DNA from: an uncultured Hippea sp.
GTDB lineage: Bacteria; Campylobacterota_A; Desulfurellia; JAADFJ01
Assembly: GCA_913009315.1 (NCBI GenBank)
Contig: CAJVZA010000008.1
Span: forward strand, 1 to 40,406
Reading direction: 5' to 3'
DNA: 40,406 bases
The position numbers and the translations under genes are program-made. The first letter of the stretch is position 1, and every line of letters begins with the position of its first letter. The notes below the pieces were generated by a model that saw nothing but the letters and a program-made list of their open reading frames with translations, ran no database searches and was not told the DNA's origin. Below are positions 33,486 through 40,406 of this stretch, piece by piece.

Positions 33486-33506
33486 CGCAAAAAGGGTTTT
33501 TTTGCG
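33486..33506 (+). terminator. Candidate intrinsic terminator after the MutS-like pair
   Basis: CGCAAAAA (33486-33493), a short loop, TTTTTGCG (33499-33506), 3 bases past the stop codon. The stem is A:T-rich and the T-run is inside it rather than after it, so efficiency is doubtful. Confidence 0.4.
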
Positions 33507-33579
33507 GAATTATTTGGCAGAGAGCAACTGCAAAGAAAAGAGGCTTTATCAACAGGCTCTTGAGAGATTGTTGATAAAT

Positions 33580-33641
33580 GTCATTGCGAGCGAAGCGAAG
33601 CAATCTAATGAGACTGCTTCGGCCTTCGGCCTCGCAGTGAC
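33580..33641. repeat. REP-like palindromic element (TCATTGCGAGCGAAGCGAAG type)
   Basis: The 62-base element begins GTCATTGCGAGCGAAGCGAA and ends CTTCGGCCTCGCAGTGAC; the ends are complementary with one mismatch and an inner GCTTCGGCC/GGCC... arm extends the stem. This 'cattgcgagcgaagcgaagcaatc' type is a well-known dispersed palindrome in several bacterial groups (general knowledge). Confidence 0.7.
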
Positions 33642-33652
33642 AGAAGGAAAAA

Positions 33653-33734
33653 GTCATTGCGAGCGCAGCGCGGCAATCTCAAAAAACGTTGGCAATAAAG
33701 GGATTGCCGTGCACCTTTCGGTGCTTACAAAGAC
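33653..33734. repeat. Second, degenerate REP-like element
   Basis: It begins GTCATTGCGAGCGCAGCGCG, clearly related to the element at 33580-33641, and contains GGCAATCTC paired loosely with GGGATTGCC downstream, plus GCACCTTTCGGTGC, a perfect 5-bp hairpin. It lies between the MutS-like pair and the 22-bp repeat at 33736. Confidence 0.55.
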
Positions 33735-33735
33735 A

Positions 33736-33757
33736 AATAGGAGTTTTTCAACAGCCT
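33736..33757 (+). repeat. Left copy of the 22-bp direct repeat bounding the cassette island
   Basis: AATAGGAGTTTTTCAACAGC plus CT, identical to 38775-38796. This copy is extended by TGTTGAG into a near-palindrome (CAACAGCCTGTTG). The two copies enclose about 5 kb containing all four island genes and all three attC-like elements. Confidence 0.75.
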
Positions 33758-33783
33758 GTTGAGACGCGACCCCTATTTTTCCT

Positions 33784-33916
33784 CAACAACCGGGTATATG
33801 AGGCGTTGGGCGTTTCGAAACACCTGACTTTCAATTTACTACGCAGTTTATTTGATGTTAAAATGTTCATATTTAGCGCTATCTGCCCAATTTTTTATAT
33901 TGCGTGTTGCGGTGTC
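33784..33916 (-). repeat. attC-like element 1 (downstream of DUF2130 gene)
   Basis: About 133 bases with imperfect inverted arms: CAACAACCGGGTATATGAGG then CGTTGGGC on the plus-strand left, and GCCCAATTTTTTATATTGCG then TGTTGCGGTG on the right. It shares with elements 2 and 3 the internal ACTTTCAATTTACTACGC (33827-33844) and the outer flank CGTTTTTATTC (33916-33926), whose TTA is the stop codon of the adjoining gene. Arm complementarity is weaker than in element 3. It is the terminal element of the array on the minus strand. Confidence 0.62.
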
Positions 33917-33920
33917 GTTT

Positions 33921-35159
33921 TTATTCTTCAATCTTTTTGTCTGATAACTGTAAAACATTTGATGTTTCTAATTCTTTACCTGCAATTCCTTTTATTGAAC
34001 CGAATAAAGCTGAAATGTTTTCTTGAACAACCCAAATCTGTTTTTCTCTGGAAGCCCAAATTTTATACATTGCTTTCTTTTCCGAATTAAGTTGCTCAAT
34101 CATTCCGTCATAGTTCTCAACAATTCTCTTAATATTCTGAACAAATTCGTTACTTGTCAAATAATTATAAAGCAATTCCATTTTGTCGCCTTTATTTTCT
34201 TCGGAAGTTTTTACGGAATGTGTTTTAATCAACATTTCTCTTAAAACGAAAGAAAGACTTTTTGCTTCGTGAAATCCACAAATCCAAACCCCATTTCTTT
34301 CTCCAAATCTGTCCATATCATTTGGTAAAGTTTGTGTAACTAAAACAGCAATGTCAGCTTTACAAGTAACTTGGTCTTGTTTTAATTTATCAATCCAATC
34401 ATTCGCAAAATTCTTTGTTCGTTTGCTCTCATAAACAATAGTGCCACATTCTTGTTGTACGGAATTAACAACTGTCTGTATACTATCAGCACCGCGTACT
34501 CCTTTTGGAACTTCTTGAATAGTGTCAAATGGGTATGTTTTTGCAAGTAAATCTTCAAGCGCTAATTCTTGAACTTCACCTTGTAACTGCATTGAACCTT
34601 GCTCCGCTTTTCGTTTCATTTCTTCTGCAAGTTTCTTGTTATCATCAATTTGTTTAAGTAGTTTAATTTTCTCTAATTCAAAACTTTCCCGTTCTTTAGC
34701 TCTGGCTTTTTCTTCTATTTCTTTTTGTTTTTCAAGAAACTGTTTCTCCATTTCAAGATTTAAGTCTTCTTCTTTCTCTTTTAATTCTGCTTCTTGTCGC
34801 ATTAAAGCGACTTCCTTTTGTTTAAGATTTTTATTTTCTTCTTTACGTTTCTTGTTTTCTTCTTCAAGAGATTTAATCTTATCTTCAAAGTTTTCAAATG
34901 CAGACTTCTCAATTTTTTCTTTCTCTGCTGTTAATTTCTTTTCTACTGCTGATTTTAAAAACTCGTCTTGCTTTTGCTTATCTTTATCAAATTCATCTTT
35001 CTCTTTTTCGAGTTTTTTCTTTTCTTCATTAAATCTATCAGCTTGTTCTGAAACTTTTTTTTCATATTCAGCTTTATAATGAGCTTCTAATTTACCTGAC
35101 AAAGCTTCTTCAACATCAAAACTGTGTCCGCAATTCGGACATTTTATTTTATTGTTCAT
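33921..35159 (-). CDS. DUF2130 protein: zinc-binding motif, long coiled coil, nuclease-like domain
   Basis: 412 residues. CPNCGH at 7-12 gives one CxxC zinc-type motif; residues about 28-195 are a Lys/Glu-rich coiled coil; the C-terminal domain carries 'GADSIQTVV' (Asp225) and 'IVYESKRTK' (Glu244-x-Lys246), fitting the PD-(D/E)XK-like pattern predicted for DUF2130. Such proteins are uncharacterised and often near mobile or defence genes. It lies alone between two attC-like elements, so it is a single-gene cassette. The TAA stop is formed by the conserved element flank. Much more AT-rich than the housekeeping genes. Confidence 0.82.
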   Translation of the reverse strand: MNNKIKCPNCGHSFDVEEALSGKLEAHYKAEYEKKVSEQADRFNEEKKKLEKEKDEFDKDKQKQDEFLKSAVEKKLTAEKEKIEKSAFENFEDKIKSLEEENKKRKEENKNLKQKEVALMRQEAELKEKEEDLNLEMEKQFLEKQKEIEEKARAKERESFELEKIKLLKQIDDNKKLAEEMKRKAEQGSMQLQGEVQELALEDLLAKTYPFDTIQEVPKGVRGADSIQTVVNSVQQECGTIVYESKRTKNFANDWIDKLKQDQVTCKADIAVLVTQTLPNDMDRFGERNGVWICGFHEAKSLSFVLREMLIKTHSVKTSEENKGDKMELLYNYLTSNEFVQNIKRIVENYDGMIEQLNSEKKAMYKIWASREKQIWVVQENISALFGSIKGIAGKELETSNVLQLSDKKIEE

Positions 35160-35177
35160 ATTTTCCTTTTTTTAAAT

Positions 35178-35313
35178 GCACCACAACGTTCAGTATATGA
35201 GGCGTTGGACGTTTTGGAACACTTAACTTTCAATTTATTACACTGTTTATTTAATGCTATAAACCTCGATGTTAGCATATTACCCAAATTACACATAGCT
35301 TTTGTTGTAGGGC
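35178..35313 (-). repeat. attC-like element 2 (between MBL and DUF2130 genes)
   Basis: 136 bases. Plus-strand left arm begins GCACCACAAC and contains AGTATATGAGGCGTTGGAC; the right arm ends TTTTGTTGTAGGGC. Outer ends pair as GCMCYACAAC / GTTGTAGGGC. It shares ACTTTCAATTTATTACAC (35226-35243) and CGTTTTTATTC (35313-35323) with the other elements, and its left half is strikingly close to element 1 (GAGGCGTTGG, then ACTTTCAATTTA, then GTTTATTT). Confidence 0.68.
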
Positions 35314-35331
35314 GTTTTTATTCATTTCTGT

Positions 35332-36636
35332 TTATATTTCTCTTGTTTCTTCGTCCTTTAATTCTACTATTGGCTCATTAAATATGTCCTTATATTTCGC
35401 TCCTTCAAATGTATGAATTGGCACAATATTTTTTGGTTTTATCGCGTCAACCATTTTTTTCAATGTCTTGATGTCAGCGTGTCCGCTTGTATGTATTTTA
35501 TGAATAGAGAATTTCCGATTTGTTAAGTAGTCAATAAATTTCTTTGTGTTTGATTTTTGTAAATATCCTTCCCACATAGAATAAATGAGATTTCCGCCTT
35601 CTATTCCGTTTACTCTGTCTAAATCTATTTGCATTGACGGTCTAACAATCATTACAATCTTTTCTGATTGATTATTAATTTCTTCTTTTGTTATTTTGAA
35701 TTTCGTGAATTGATACAAGATTTTTTCATTTCCTTCTCTTGATAATCTGTCGCTTGTGTATTTAGGAAACATCACTTTTAAATTTTCAAAATCATCTGAT
35801 GGATAAGGAATACCAGCATATTTTGATAATTCTTTCAGAACTTTTGCTACATAAACATCTACAACAAATATTTTTCCAGTCCGTTTACAAGCCCTATAAA
35901 TTGAAGTTAATCTGTCAATATTTTGACCAGAAGTATAAATCAAGTTTACTTTTCCTTTTTGTTTGAATACTTCAACTAATTCATTTTCAGTTTCAGGTTC
36001 TGTTTTAAATGGTTTATTATCTCTGCTAATTGTTGTGCCTTCAAGAAGCAGGTAATCAACATTCTGAGGTGCATTGTGAGTAAACCAATAAAATGCTTTT
36101 GCTTTTCTGCCGTGAGAACGAAAGTCACCCGAATAAAACAAACTTTTTCCGTCTGCTTCAACTAAAAACGAATAAGCATCAAACGCTGAATGGTCAGCCC
36201 AATATGGTGTAACTGAAATGTCGCCTATATTAAAAGTCTTTTCTTTTTCAAAGAAGTTCGTGTTTTTTAGATATATTTCTTGCGGTGTAAATAAATTATT
36301 GAGCTCAATTATTTTATGGGTTGCTTCACCCAAATAATACTGAACATTATCGTTTATAAAGTTTGTTAAACCGTAATGGTCTTGATGTGGATGCGAAATA
36401 ATTACACCGTTAATTAAGTCTTTAGAACTATCATAAAGTCCTTCAATATTTGGTAAAATACCTTTGCTAACTAACTCACTTGTTTTTAAAGTTTTGTATT
36501 TTGCAAAATCAAATTCTCTTCCGTCTTTTTCAACTAATGGCATACCAAAGTCAAGTAGGATTCTTGTGCTTTCAGTCCAAATCTCTACGCAAGAACCTCC
36601 TATTTCTTTTGTCCCGCGATGGATTTTAAATTTCAT
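35332..36636 (-). CDS. Metallo-beta-lactamase-fold hydrolase, RNase J/beta-CASP-like
   Basis: 434 residues. MBL metal motif HPHQDH at 82-87, 'WADHS' (His149), 'YSGDFRSHG' (Asp171), and the C-terminal 'HTSGHAD' (382-388) plus 'PIHTFEG' (His408), the arrangement seen in RNase J and related beta-CASP enzymes. RNA processing or degradation is therefore likely, though a DNA substrate cannot be excluded. The central region is diverged from housekeeping RNase J and the protein is shorter. Its start overlaps the upstream PD-(D/E)XK-like gene by 4 bases; both sit in a single cassette between attC-like elements 2 and 3. A functional pair is inferred. Confidence 0.82.
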   Translation of the reverse strand: MKFKIHRGTKEIGGSCVEIWTESTRILLDFGMPLVEKDGREFDFAKYKTLKTSELVSKGILPNIEGLYDSSKDLINGVIISHPHQDHYGLTNFINDNVQYYLGEATHKIIELNNLFTPQEIYLKNTNFFEKEKTFNIGDISVTPYWADHSAFDAYSFLVEADGKSLFYSGDFRSHGRKAKAFYWFTHNAPQNVDYLLLEGTTISRDNKPFKTEPETENELVEVFKQKGKVNLIYTSGQNIDRLTSIYRACKRTGKIFVVDVYVAKVLKELSKYAGIPYPSDDFENLKVMFPKYTSDRLSREGNEKILYQFTKFKITKEEINNQSEKIVMIVRPSMQIDLDRVNGIEGGNLIYSMWEGYLQKSNTKKFIDYLTNRKFSIHKIHTSGHADIKTLKKMVDAIKPKNIVPIHTFEGAKYKDIFNEPIVELKDEETREI

Positions 36637-37484
36637 AATTTTATTAAATAATCATTCCAAATAGCAAGACCACAATTAAATATTTCAATTTGACTATTAA
36701 AAGAAAGTGCTTTTAATTTAGATTTATCAAACAAACTACTATTTGGGTTATAGTCGATTAAGGCAACAATAAATTTTGCATCTTCGATTTTATCTGAAAT
36801 TTTTAATGTTTTCAGGGCATCTAATCTCTCTTTTGATTGATTTATTAAACCTAATTCAATTTTTAAGTTTTTCAGATATCCTGTTTCAGATGCAATTCCT
36901 GAAATATTACTTTTTGCAGCATCGTAATATTTGTCAATCTGCTGATCAATATCTGATATATCAGGATTTAGAGAATATTTGACTTCAATAAATGTCAATG
37001 GCGCAGTTTGATTTCTTTTTCGATTTTTTCTACTCCAAAAGAACCCACTCAAATCAAATCTTGAATTATTAATATTGTCTGCATATTGTCTGTCTGTTAG
37101 AAATATTTCGCTATTGACATTCTTGTTTAAATTATTGCTTCTTATCAATAACTGTTCATATTCAATTTCCAAAGTTGGTCGTTTCGATTTAACACTTATA
37201 ACATTGTTCTTTATTAAAGGAATATTGTCCAAGTAATTATTAACATCGGTTGCTGATGATAAAGTCAACTTTGACAAACTCGTTCCTTTTTGAAATTTCT
37301 TATGAATTTCGAAAGTTCCATTTTCATTGAGTTTTAAAATAGAGTTTCCTTTAAAATATATGTTGATATACCCATCTCTTATTTCAAAATCTAAGGTGGT
37401 ATCATTTATGACATAATCTACAATTGAATGGAATAATCCACCTTTTTTTAATTCTAATACAAAATTTCCGTCTAATACTCTCAT
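36633..37484 (-). CDS. Unknown protein with a PD-(D/E)XK-like motif
   Basis: 283 residues, no signal peptide or membrane helix, AT-rich codon use. The N-terminal half is beta-rich and unrecognised. Residues 142-185 read 'RFDLSGFFWSRKNRKRNQTA' followed by 'PLTFIEVKYSLNPD' and 'IDQQIDKYY': Asp144, Glu167-x-Lys169 and a following Gln give the pattern of a PD-(D/E)XK nuclease core, with a basic stretch between. No known family is named from sequence alone. It is first in a two-gene cassette and overlaps the MBL gene by 4 bases. Confidence 0.7.
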   Translation of the reverse strand: MRVLDGNFVLELKKGGLFHSIVDYVINDTTLDFEIRDGYINIYFKGNSILKLNENGTFEIHKKFQKGTSLSKLTLSSATDVNNYLDNIPLIKNNVISVKSKRPTLEIEYEQLLIRSNNLNKNVNSEIFLTDRQYADNINNSRFDLSGFFWSRKNRKRNQTAPLTFIEVKYSLNPDISDIDQQIDKYYDAAKSNISGIASETGYLKNLKIELGLINQSKERLDALKTLKISDKIEDAKFIVALIDYNPNSSLFDKSKLKALSFNSQIEIFNCGLAIWNDYLIKL

Positions 37485-37516
37485 AGTTTATTCCTTATTC
37501 TGCGGTTTCTTCAAAT

Positions 37517-37651
37517 GCCCTACAATACGCAATATGAAAAGTTGAGCATTTTAAAACTCCAAACTTTCAATTTACCACACCTTTCATTAATTGTTAGTTC
37601 GTTCACATCTACCATTTTCCGTCCAATTTTTTATATTGCGTATTGTAGTGC
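37517..37651 (-). repeat. attC-like element 3, long hairpin between the PD-(D/E)XK and agmatine-deiminase genes
   Basis: 135 bases with 31-base arms: left GCCCTACAATACGCAATATG... (37517-37547) and right ...TATATTGCGTATTGTAGTGC (37621-37651). By hand 26 of 31 positions are complementary, including an uninterrupted 16-base run around the ATACGCAATAT core. The 73-base centre contains ACTTTCAATTTACCACAC (37563-37580). Flank CGTTTTTATTC is at 37651-37661. The best-preserved member of the three. Confidence 0.75.
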
Positions 37652-37655
37652 GTTT

Positions 37656-38507
37656 TTATTCTTTTATCGTCCAAGTCGTACAATTTAATAGTCCGCCAAA
37701 AAATCCTATTTCATTATAATTGATTGTCTCTATTATTCTGTTTGGAAAAATTGATTTAAATAATTCAAGAACTTCTTTGTCCTTATTTCCTTCAACTTCA
37801 AACACCGGCAGCAAAATCAAATTGTCAACTTCCAAATAGTTTACATAGCAACCAATTGCATTGTAAGGATATTTTTTGTTTATTTCTCTATTTTCAAAAA
37901 ACGGTATGTCGATATATTTAAGATTATGATTTTTGCAGACTTTATTTATTCCATCTATCCAATATTTGTATTCTTGATTTCGATCATTCCCAAGAATTGT
38001 GTTTTGGTCAACGAAACGAATCATTCCGTCAGCGTGACCAGTCATATCCGTATTTATCTGGGGAATAATGATTATTTCAGCATTAAGCAAGTTTTCTAAT
38101 TCTCTAATAAGTTTTGACTTGTCTGAATATTCAGGGTTTTCATCAAAAACCCTGTCACTGATAATTGCTTTATTGCTCCAATTAACAACATTCCCACCGT
38201 CAAGATTGATGTTTGAGAATTTAGGTTCAATTTTATTCGCTTTACAAACTTTGCTTGGGTTTGATTGAAGTCGCAAATCATTTTTCAAATAACTCGGTTC
38301 GTATCTAAATTGTATAAATTCTTCGTTGTCGATTTGAATTGGCATATAATCTCTACACCAAATATCTTTTGTTGATTTTAGAAACTTATATTTTATGTTT
38401 CTTGTCTCTAGAATATGGATTAATTGATTACAGGTTTTCTCAAAACGTTCATCGATTTCAAGTCGATCTGATAAGTAAACAGTATTTGTATTTCTATTTT
38501 CAAGCAT
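37656..38507 (-). CDS. Agmatine deiminase / peptidyl-arginine deiminase-like protein
   Basis: 283 residues of the PAD_porph family, which deiminates agmatine or arginine residues. Catalytic features: 'WCRDYMP' (Asp53), 'NLDGGNVV', 'TDMTGHADGMIRFVD' (His158, Asp160) and the nucleophile in 'GFFGGLLNCTTW' (Cys276). It is shorter than typical agmatine deiminases (about 340-370), and the terminal motif GGLLNCTTW differs from the usual GGGxHCxT, so the substrate is uncertain. No putrescine-pathway partner is adjacent. The TAA stop is formed by the conserved attC-like flank, marking it as a cassette gene. Confidence 0.8.
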   Translation of the reverse strand: MLENRNTNTVYLSDRLEIDERFEKTCNQLIHILETRNIKYKFLKSTKDIWCRDYMPIQIDNEEFIQFRYEPSYLKNDLRLQSNPSKVCKANKIEPKFSNINLDGGNVVNWSNKAIISDRVFDENPEYSDKSKLIRELENLLNAEIIIIPQINTDMTGHADGMIRFVDQNTILGNDRNQEYKYWIDGINKVCKNHNLKYIDIPFFENREINKKYPYNAIGCYVNYLEVDNLILLPVFEVEGNKDKEVLELFKSIFPNRIIETINYNEIGFFGGLLNCTTWTIKE

Positions 38508-38510
38508 TTC

Positions 38511-38741
38511 TTAGAAATTTTGTCCATTCAATTTGTTTTTTTCATTATAAAATCTTGCAGGTATTGTTAAAGCCTTAAAGTAAATTCCATTTTTGAAACA
38601 ATATTCCTTAATAATCTCTATTTGATTATTCATATTTGGAATGTCAGTAAATGTTTTCCTTGTAAAACATATTTTTTTGAGATTTTTCAGTCTTTCAATT
38701 TCATTTTTTATATTCTACCATTTAGTAACTTTATTGTCCAT
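38511..38741 (-). pseudogene. Small ORF with an in-frame TAG at codon 9, upstream of the agmatine-deiminase gene
   Basis: A 76-codon frame from the ATG at 38741 to TAA at 38511, interrupted only by TAG at 38715-38717. The remainder reads 'NIKNEIERLKNLKKICF' and 'TRKTFTDIPNMNNQIEIIKEY', then '...FKALTIPARFYNEKNKLNGQNF', which looks protein-like. It stops 3 bases before the deiminase ATG. Family unknown. Most simply a decayed or truncated gene; translation from the internal ATG is possible. Confidence 0.35.
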
Positions 38742-38774
38742 GAAATCACTATTGTAATATAACTCCTTAAAGAT

Positions 38775-38796
38775 AATAGGAGTTTTTCAACAGCCT
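38775..38796 (+). repeat. Right copy of the 22-bp direct repeat bounding the cassette island
   Basis: Identical over 22 bases to 33736-33757 (AATAGGAGTTTTTCAACAGC then CT). It is followed by CTATTG rather than the palindromic TGTTGAG of the left copy. Confidence 0.75.
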
Positions 38797-38868
38797 CTAT
38801 TGTTCTAACCCTCATAACTATCTCCTTTGTTTTCTCAAATTTTCTTTATCGGCCTATTTGCACATTCT

Positions 38869-40284: not shown

Positions 40285-40406
40285 AGATCGGAAGAGCGTC
40301 GTGTAGGGAAAGAGTGTAGATCTCGGTGGTCGCCGTATCATTAAAAAAAAAAAAACATAACATATCAATAGTTATATAATCTTCACAACTACAACCGCAC
40401 AACATA
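40285..40406. other. Illumina TruSeq adapter, poly(A) and chimeric contig end (artefact)
   Basis: AGATCGGAAGAGCGTCGTGT begins at 40285 and the match to the reverse complement of the TruSeq universal adapter continues to 40342 (...GCCGTATCATT). It is followed by 13 A residues (40343-40355) typical of read-through past the adapter. The remaining 51 bases (40356-40406) are of unknown origin and need not belong to this genome. Translated on the minus strand this gives the notorious artefact peptide NDTATTEIYTLSLHDALPI. Confidence 0.98.

Follow-up and report, generated by a model that had tools for sequence, protein, structure and literature searches.

A three-cassette array with probable integron attC sites in the genome of an uncultured Hippea sp.

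The window, which is the whole analysed stretch of 40,406 nucleotides from an uncultured Hippea sp. (contig C8), contains four minus-strand genes that alternate with three repeated elements, as listed in Table 1. All of these genes face one way and each element starts at or just past a stop codon; both features had been described in a first-pass annotation of this DNA and are seen directly in the sequence. The annotation had also placed an element after each transcription unit and counted four genes. The recurrence is right, but the four genes form three cassettes, because the gene of a 283-residue protein and the MBL-fold hydrolase gene overlap and one element is common to both.

Table 1. Positions of the array features in the window, with the elements read as attC sites.
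Feature	Position	Strand	Boxes or context	Evidence
Dispersed (MITE-like) repeat at the array end	33560-33787 (within 33500-33790)	minus		66 matches in own genome
Element 1 (attC site 1)	33781-33914	minus	3' end of DUF2130 cassette; R'' CACCGCAAC, R' core GTTGAGG, crossover G^TT, L''/L' TTGGGC/GCCCAA (read from sequence)	profile without own genome E=1.3e-27; covariance model 107.5 bits
DUF2130 gene, 412 aa	33921-35159	minus	cassette-borne	Pfam PF09903 E=4e-66
Element 2 (attC site 2)	35178-35313	minus	3' end of two-gene unknown+MBL cassette; R'' GCCCTACAAC, R' GTTGTGG	profile without own genome E=2e-21; covariance model 100.9 bits
MBL-fold/RMMBL (beta-CASP-like) hydrolase gene	35332-36636	minus	cassette-borne	Pfam PF12706 and PF07521
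283-aa unknown protein gene	36633-37484	minus	same cassette as MBL gene, overlapping its start	
Element 3 (attC site 3)	37517-37651	minus	3' end of PAD cassette; R'' CACTACAAT, R' ATTGTAGG	profile without own genome E=1.1e-14; fold z -4.1/-5.0
PAD_porph/agmatine deiminase-like gene, 283 aa	37656-38507	minus	cassette-borne	Pfam PF04371 E=7e-23
End of the same dispersed repeat (AATAGGAGTTTTTCAACAGCCT)	38776-38798	plus	other side of the array	sequence read and family membership

A broken open reading frame with an in-frame TAG lies at 38509-38760 ahead of the PAD gene and may belong to the PAD cassette. In another genome (L150:5304-7362), a 75%-identical MBL gene overlaps the gene of another small protein, which has an IELKYEG motif. 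The 283-residue protein encoded ahead of the MBL gene in the window gave no match in Pfam and NCBIfam and no credible match in the PDB; no relatives of its gene were found in plasmids, and none of it or of the DUF2130 gene in viral contigs. Its FIEVKY motif suggests, as we presume from our own reading, a PDDEXK-type nuclease. The overlapping genes at 35332-37484 are possibly an MBL and nuclease pair with an exchangeable partner.

The dispersed repeat family (CAACAGGCTGTTGAAAAACTCCTATTTG ... TCATTGCGAGCGAAGCG) adjoins both ends of the array, and elsewhere it lies at contig ends. The contig is artefactual at its right end, where positions 40287-40345 hold an Illumina adapter sequence (AGATCGGAAGAGCGTCGTGTAGGGAAAGAGTGTAGATCTCGGTGGTCGCCGTATCATT) followed by poly-A.

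The first-pass annotation located three related elements, and their positions and relatedness were borne out. The elements are mutually alike far beyond chance and are among the top direct-repeat families of the window (70 nt at 84% and 67%, and 126 nt at 71%). A profile HMM was trained on 27 elements taken exclusively from other genomes to avoid circularity; it recovers the three elements at E-values of 1e-27, 2e-21 and 1e-14, and the same profile gave zero matches at E<10 in ten shuffled windows. A search of the window against Rfam gave no match at the gathering thresholds. The common motifs and inverted ends GCMCTACAAY/RTTGTRGKGC, also described earlier, are present and can be read directly. 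The triplets AAC (in R'') and GTT (in R') occur in elements 1 and 2, as had been claimed, and in most family members, and element 3 carries AAT/ATT. In place of the strict RYYYAAC/GTTRRRY boxes, the elements carry CTACAAC, CCGCAAC and CTACAAT.

Public genome contigs were scanned for the internal motif TAAATTGAAAGT-N(10-26)-CCAACGC, where 17 spacings were allowed. The scan returned 54 stretches, among which 28 loci (30 copies) are the same element, all with the 17-base spacing. Their consensus is YAAC-AATG-TATATAAGGCATTGGGCG ... CGCCCAACGCCTCATATA-CTCACC-GTTR. The elements stand behind quite different genes, on contigs some of which reach 90-170 kb, in MAGs named Bacteroidota, Chlorobiota, Melioribacteraceae, Calditrichaceae, Latescibacteria, Neomarinimicrobiota, Campylobacteraceae and others. 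With the covariance model, nine sites were found in the own genome, eight in a congener (G001) and five in G010, and most of the other relatives tested in the class had none. In the congener, a DUF2130 gene likewise lies between attC sites, and the sites also bound a DUF6602 gene, a hydrolase gene and a WYL regulator gene. The neighbours at the 28 loci and in the congener thus differ: the search that the first-pass annotation had proposed, for the same elements beside other genes, was positive, and the outcome named there as a refutation, constant neighbours in relatives, is not what is seen. In viral contigs, the attC pattern gave only chance matches inside genes.

Two further observations were made on the distribution of the sites. 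At L015 (G000:C50, 1-2000), a family site with the canonical GTTAGGT lies, by reading only, between PhzF-like and Vsr-like genes. Both the own genome and another family of the class (L176, L179) have attC sites and a MazF-like gene near the same hydrogenase-subunit-like gene; this likeness is either a shared hotspot or chance.

In integrons, the crossover takes place between the G and the TT of the R' box; the TTNNN with which a cassette starts therefore stems from the R' box of its own attC site and has to be complementary to the R'' box of that site. The complementarity of R'' and R' was therefore scored at seven variable positions for 14 cassettes between neighbouring sites, the ends of which were read by eye. 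It amounts to 6.0 of 7 positions within the own cassette, compared to 2.2 of 7 for all other pairings, and none of 200,000 permutations reaches this value. The unknown+MBL cassette of the window has 7 of 7 complementary positions and the DUF2130 cassette 5 of 7, although the window alone discriminates weakly because its cassette ends are all alike. Such cassette-specific complementarity is what an IntI crossover at G^TT predicts. The failure of the strict RYYYAAC/GTTRRRY boxes, which the first-pass annotation had correctly recorded, is explained in the same way, since the positions concerned follow the cassette. According to a published comparison, the conservation of attC sequences is restricted to the AAC and GTT triplets (PMC3607928), and the strict form is not treated here as a defining requirement for attC.

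One cassette is found in two contexts. The C-terminal 107 residues of the MBL protein have an 81% identical counterpart in a Chlorobiota MAG (L064), with the identical R'' box CGCCCTACAAC; there, the cassette end precedes a YhcG/DUF1016 gene, which is another next gene than in the window. Within the own genome, contig C38 starts with an MBL cassette end, the attC of which is 89% identical to element 2, and then the array ends. At GTTGAGG, this diverged attC runs into the end sequence that is also present on C8. The identity of this shared end (GTTGAGGAAAAATAGGGG) on C8 and C38 is at most a possible sign of recombination, because the dispersed repeat begins a few bases further on.

The stem of the family, consisting of R, an unpaired spacer, L and an inner stem, is paired in 85% of the cells and shows 26 double changes, compared to 8.7 after shuffling and 6-8 in slid controls. 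The z-scores of the folds were determined against single-base shuffles. In a native family member (L050), the bottom strand folds into an R stem, an unpaired spacer and an L stem with one unpaired base (z -4.9). The bottom-strand fold proposed as a check by the first-pass annotation is thus canonical in this member, but less good in the window, where elements 1 and 2 fold weakly and element 3 folds without the spacer. The claim of three hairpins holds for element 3 (z -4 to -5 when folded single-stranded within the array), which has a long, near-perfect outer stem and lacks the central unpaired spacer; in the array state, the folds of elements 1 and 2 do not surpass those of shuffles (z ~0 to +1.7). 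When elements 1 and 2 are rebuilt as native circles, the R stems are regained (-14.6 and -14.5 kcal/mol, top strand), and the L parts, where the boxes are mismatched, are still poor. The unpaired spacer directs the strand choice (PMC8946536).

The folds also bear on whether the elements could be dispersed repeats or transcription terminators that settled behind genes and were never recombination sites. Their location directly past stop codons and the strong hairpin of element 3 would suit this explanation. However, terminators predict neither the complementarity between the gene-unit start and the box that follows the unit nor an asymmetric spacing that is conserved. The folds of elements 1 and 2 are weak, and the repeat dispersed through this genome differs from the elements in sequence. 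We consider this explanation extremely improbable.

The first-pass annotation had noted no integrase in sight. This is right for the window, and a genome-wide search for IntI gave no place on C8; neither an integrase nor an attI stands beside the array. For the genome it does not hold, because contig C14 carries an IntI, the sole recognisable one of the genome, broken into three frames by two frameshifts, in which the IntI-specific patch LPQALERKYPNANKEFKWQFLFP is intact. A Pc-like promoter, TTGACT-17-TATAAA, points towards the end of this contig, which ends at ...AATAAAGAGTTA (...GAGTTA) with an attI-like GTTA ~160 bp beyond IntI. The nearest intact relative among those fetched belongs to a Campylobacteraceae genome (G066) that carries the same attC family, with identities of 57% over 200 residues and 75% over 59 residues. 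In other members of the class, XerC/D-type relatives matched the profile mostly in two separate blocks. In the congener G001, a C-terminal remnant of IntI lies directly ahead of its array. Among the contigs fetched, none has an intact IntI adjoining this attC family, and one weak covariance-model match of 34 bits was found on L110, which has a broken IntI; since no contig joins the two, the link between an intact IntI and this attC family is inferred.

The first-pass annotation had left room for a different cassette-shuffling system, in which attC-like sites are served by another recombinase. The deviation of the R boxes from RYYYAAC/GTTRRRY is compatible with such a system, as is the fact that no IntI was found beside any array of the family. 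Against this, the AAC/GTT triplets, L box, unpaired spacer and G^TT junction all fit attC, and IntI scores above the curated cut-off in 4 of the 26 genomes with the attC family, in addition to the broken copy in the own genome. With R-box positions that are cassette-specific and self-complementary and a decayed IntI in the genome, a separate system is unneeded, and we regard it as very improbable.

The three elements are very probably integron attC sites and the genes integron cassettes, by means of which bacteria exchange single genes; together they form a three-cassette CALIN-type array. The first-pass reading of integron cassettes or a CALIN-like cluster is upheld by the varied neighbours, the G^TT complementarity, the MBL cassette in two contexts, the covarying stem and the decayed IntI. 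A CALIN is defined by at least two attC sites within 4 kb with no intI beside them, and the window has three sites 1.4 and 2.3 kb apart. A complete integron has an intact intI adjoining attI and the array; here, IntI lies on C14 with two frameshifts.

In the integron mechanism, the bottom strand of attC would fold into a hairpin with an R stem, an unpaired spacer, an L stem with an extrahelical base and a variable end. The integron integrase would cut the R' box between G and TT, excision would release a circle in which the leading bases, TT(N), pair with the circle's own R'' box, and insertion would join the circle to attI or to another attC. We infer that an IntI of the lineage, since decayed, assembled the array, and that the genes of the array presumably serve accessory functions. 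The array is probably immobile in cis, because the folds of two of its sites are weak and the third is devoid of the unpaired spacer; it may now be moved rarely, or only by an integrase in trans. For CALINs, movement of cassettes in trans is still possible (PMC9668308).

A stricter form of this CALIN reading, which refines rather than contradicts it, is that the former attC sites now make up a dead fossil that no integrase can move. The two frameshifts in IntI, the mismatched L boxes of elements 1 and 2, the absent spacer of element 3 and the dispersed repeats adjoining both array ends speak for a fossil. However, the R stems of sites 1 and 2 are restored when the native circle is restored, and C38 holds another MBL cassette end, whose diverged attC meets the shared end sequence at GTTGAGG. 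A dead array is a serious possibility, from which we lean away only slightly.

The CALIN-type array in the window is a good but ordinary example of integron cassettes with attC, and no rule of integron biology is changed by it. A lineage with a small genome and few relatives is here seen to have an integron cassette array together with a decayed platform. The sequence-conserved attC family offers a means of retrieving cassettes from metagenomes across phyla, and strict-box searches would miss such arrays because the R''/R' pairing is cassette-specific. A broader proposal is that cassettes are passed around among many phyla of uncultivated bacteria, and perhaps archaea, by one attC family that is conserved along all of its 135 bp, the normally variable end included, and that this family is recognised by one IntI lineage of which a broken copy is present here. 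We put this forward tentatively and consider it somewhat doubtful.

Among known systems, the integrons in archaeal and environmental MAGs (PMC9668308) are mostly CALINs on short contigs, and the family described here likewise occurs in contigs binned as archaeal (L047, L050). The binning of these short contigs is, however, unsafe: an identical attC-bearing sequence is found in a Heimdallarchaeota MAG (L047) and in a Saprospiraceae MAG (L081), one of which is misbinned. The own genome resembles that of a host of a sedentary chromosomal integron in its IntI remnant, Pc-like promoter and attI-like GTTA at a contig end, whereas its IntI is broken and unlinked to the array in the assembly. Compared to the CALINs of IntegronFinder (PMC9024848), the sites come from a family of long elements (~135 bp) whose terminal part is conserved, and their R-box letters are non-canonical; the array itself agrees with them in having three attC sites in one orientation within the 4 kb spacing, cassettes of one or two genes, and no adjoining intI.
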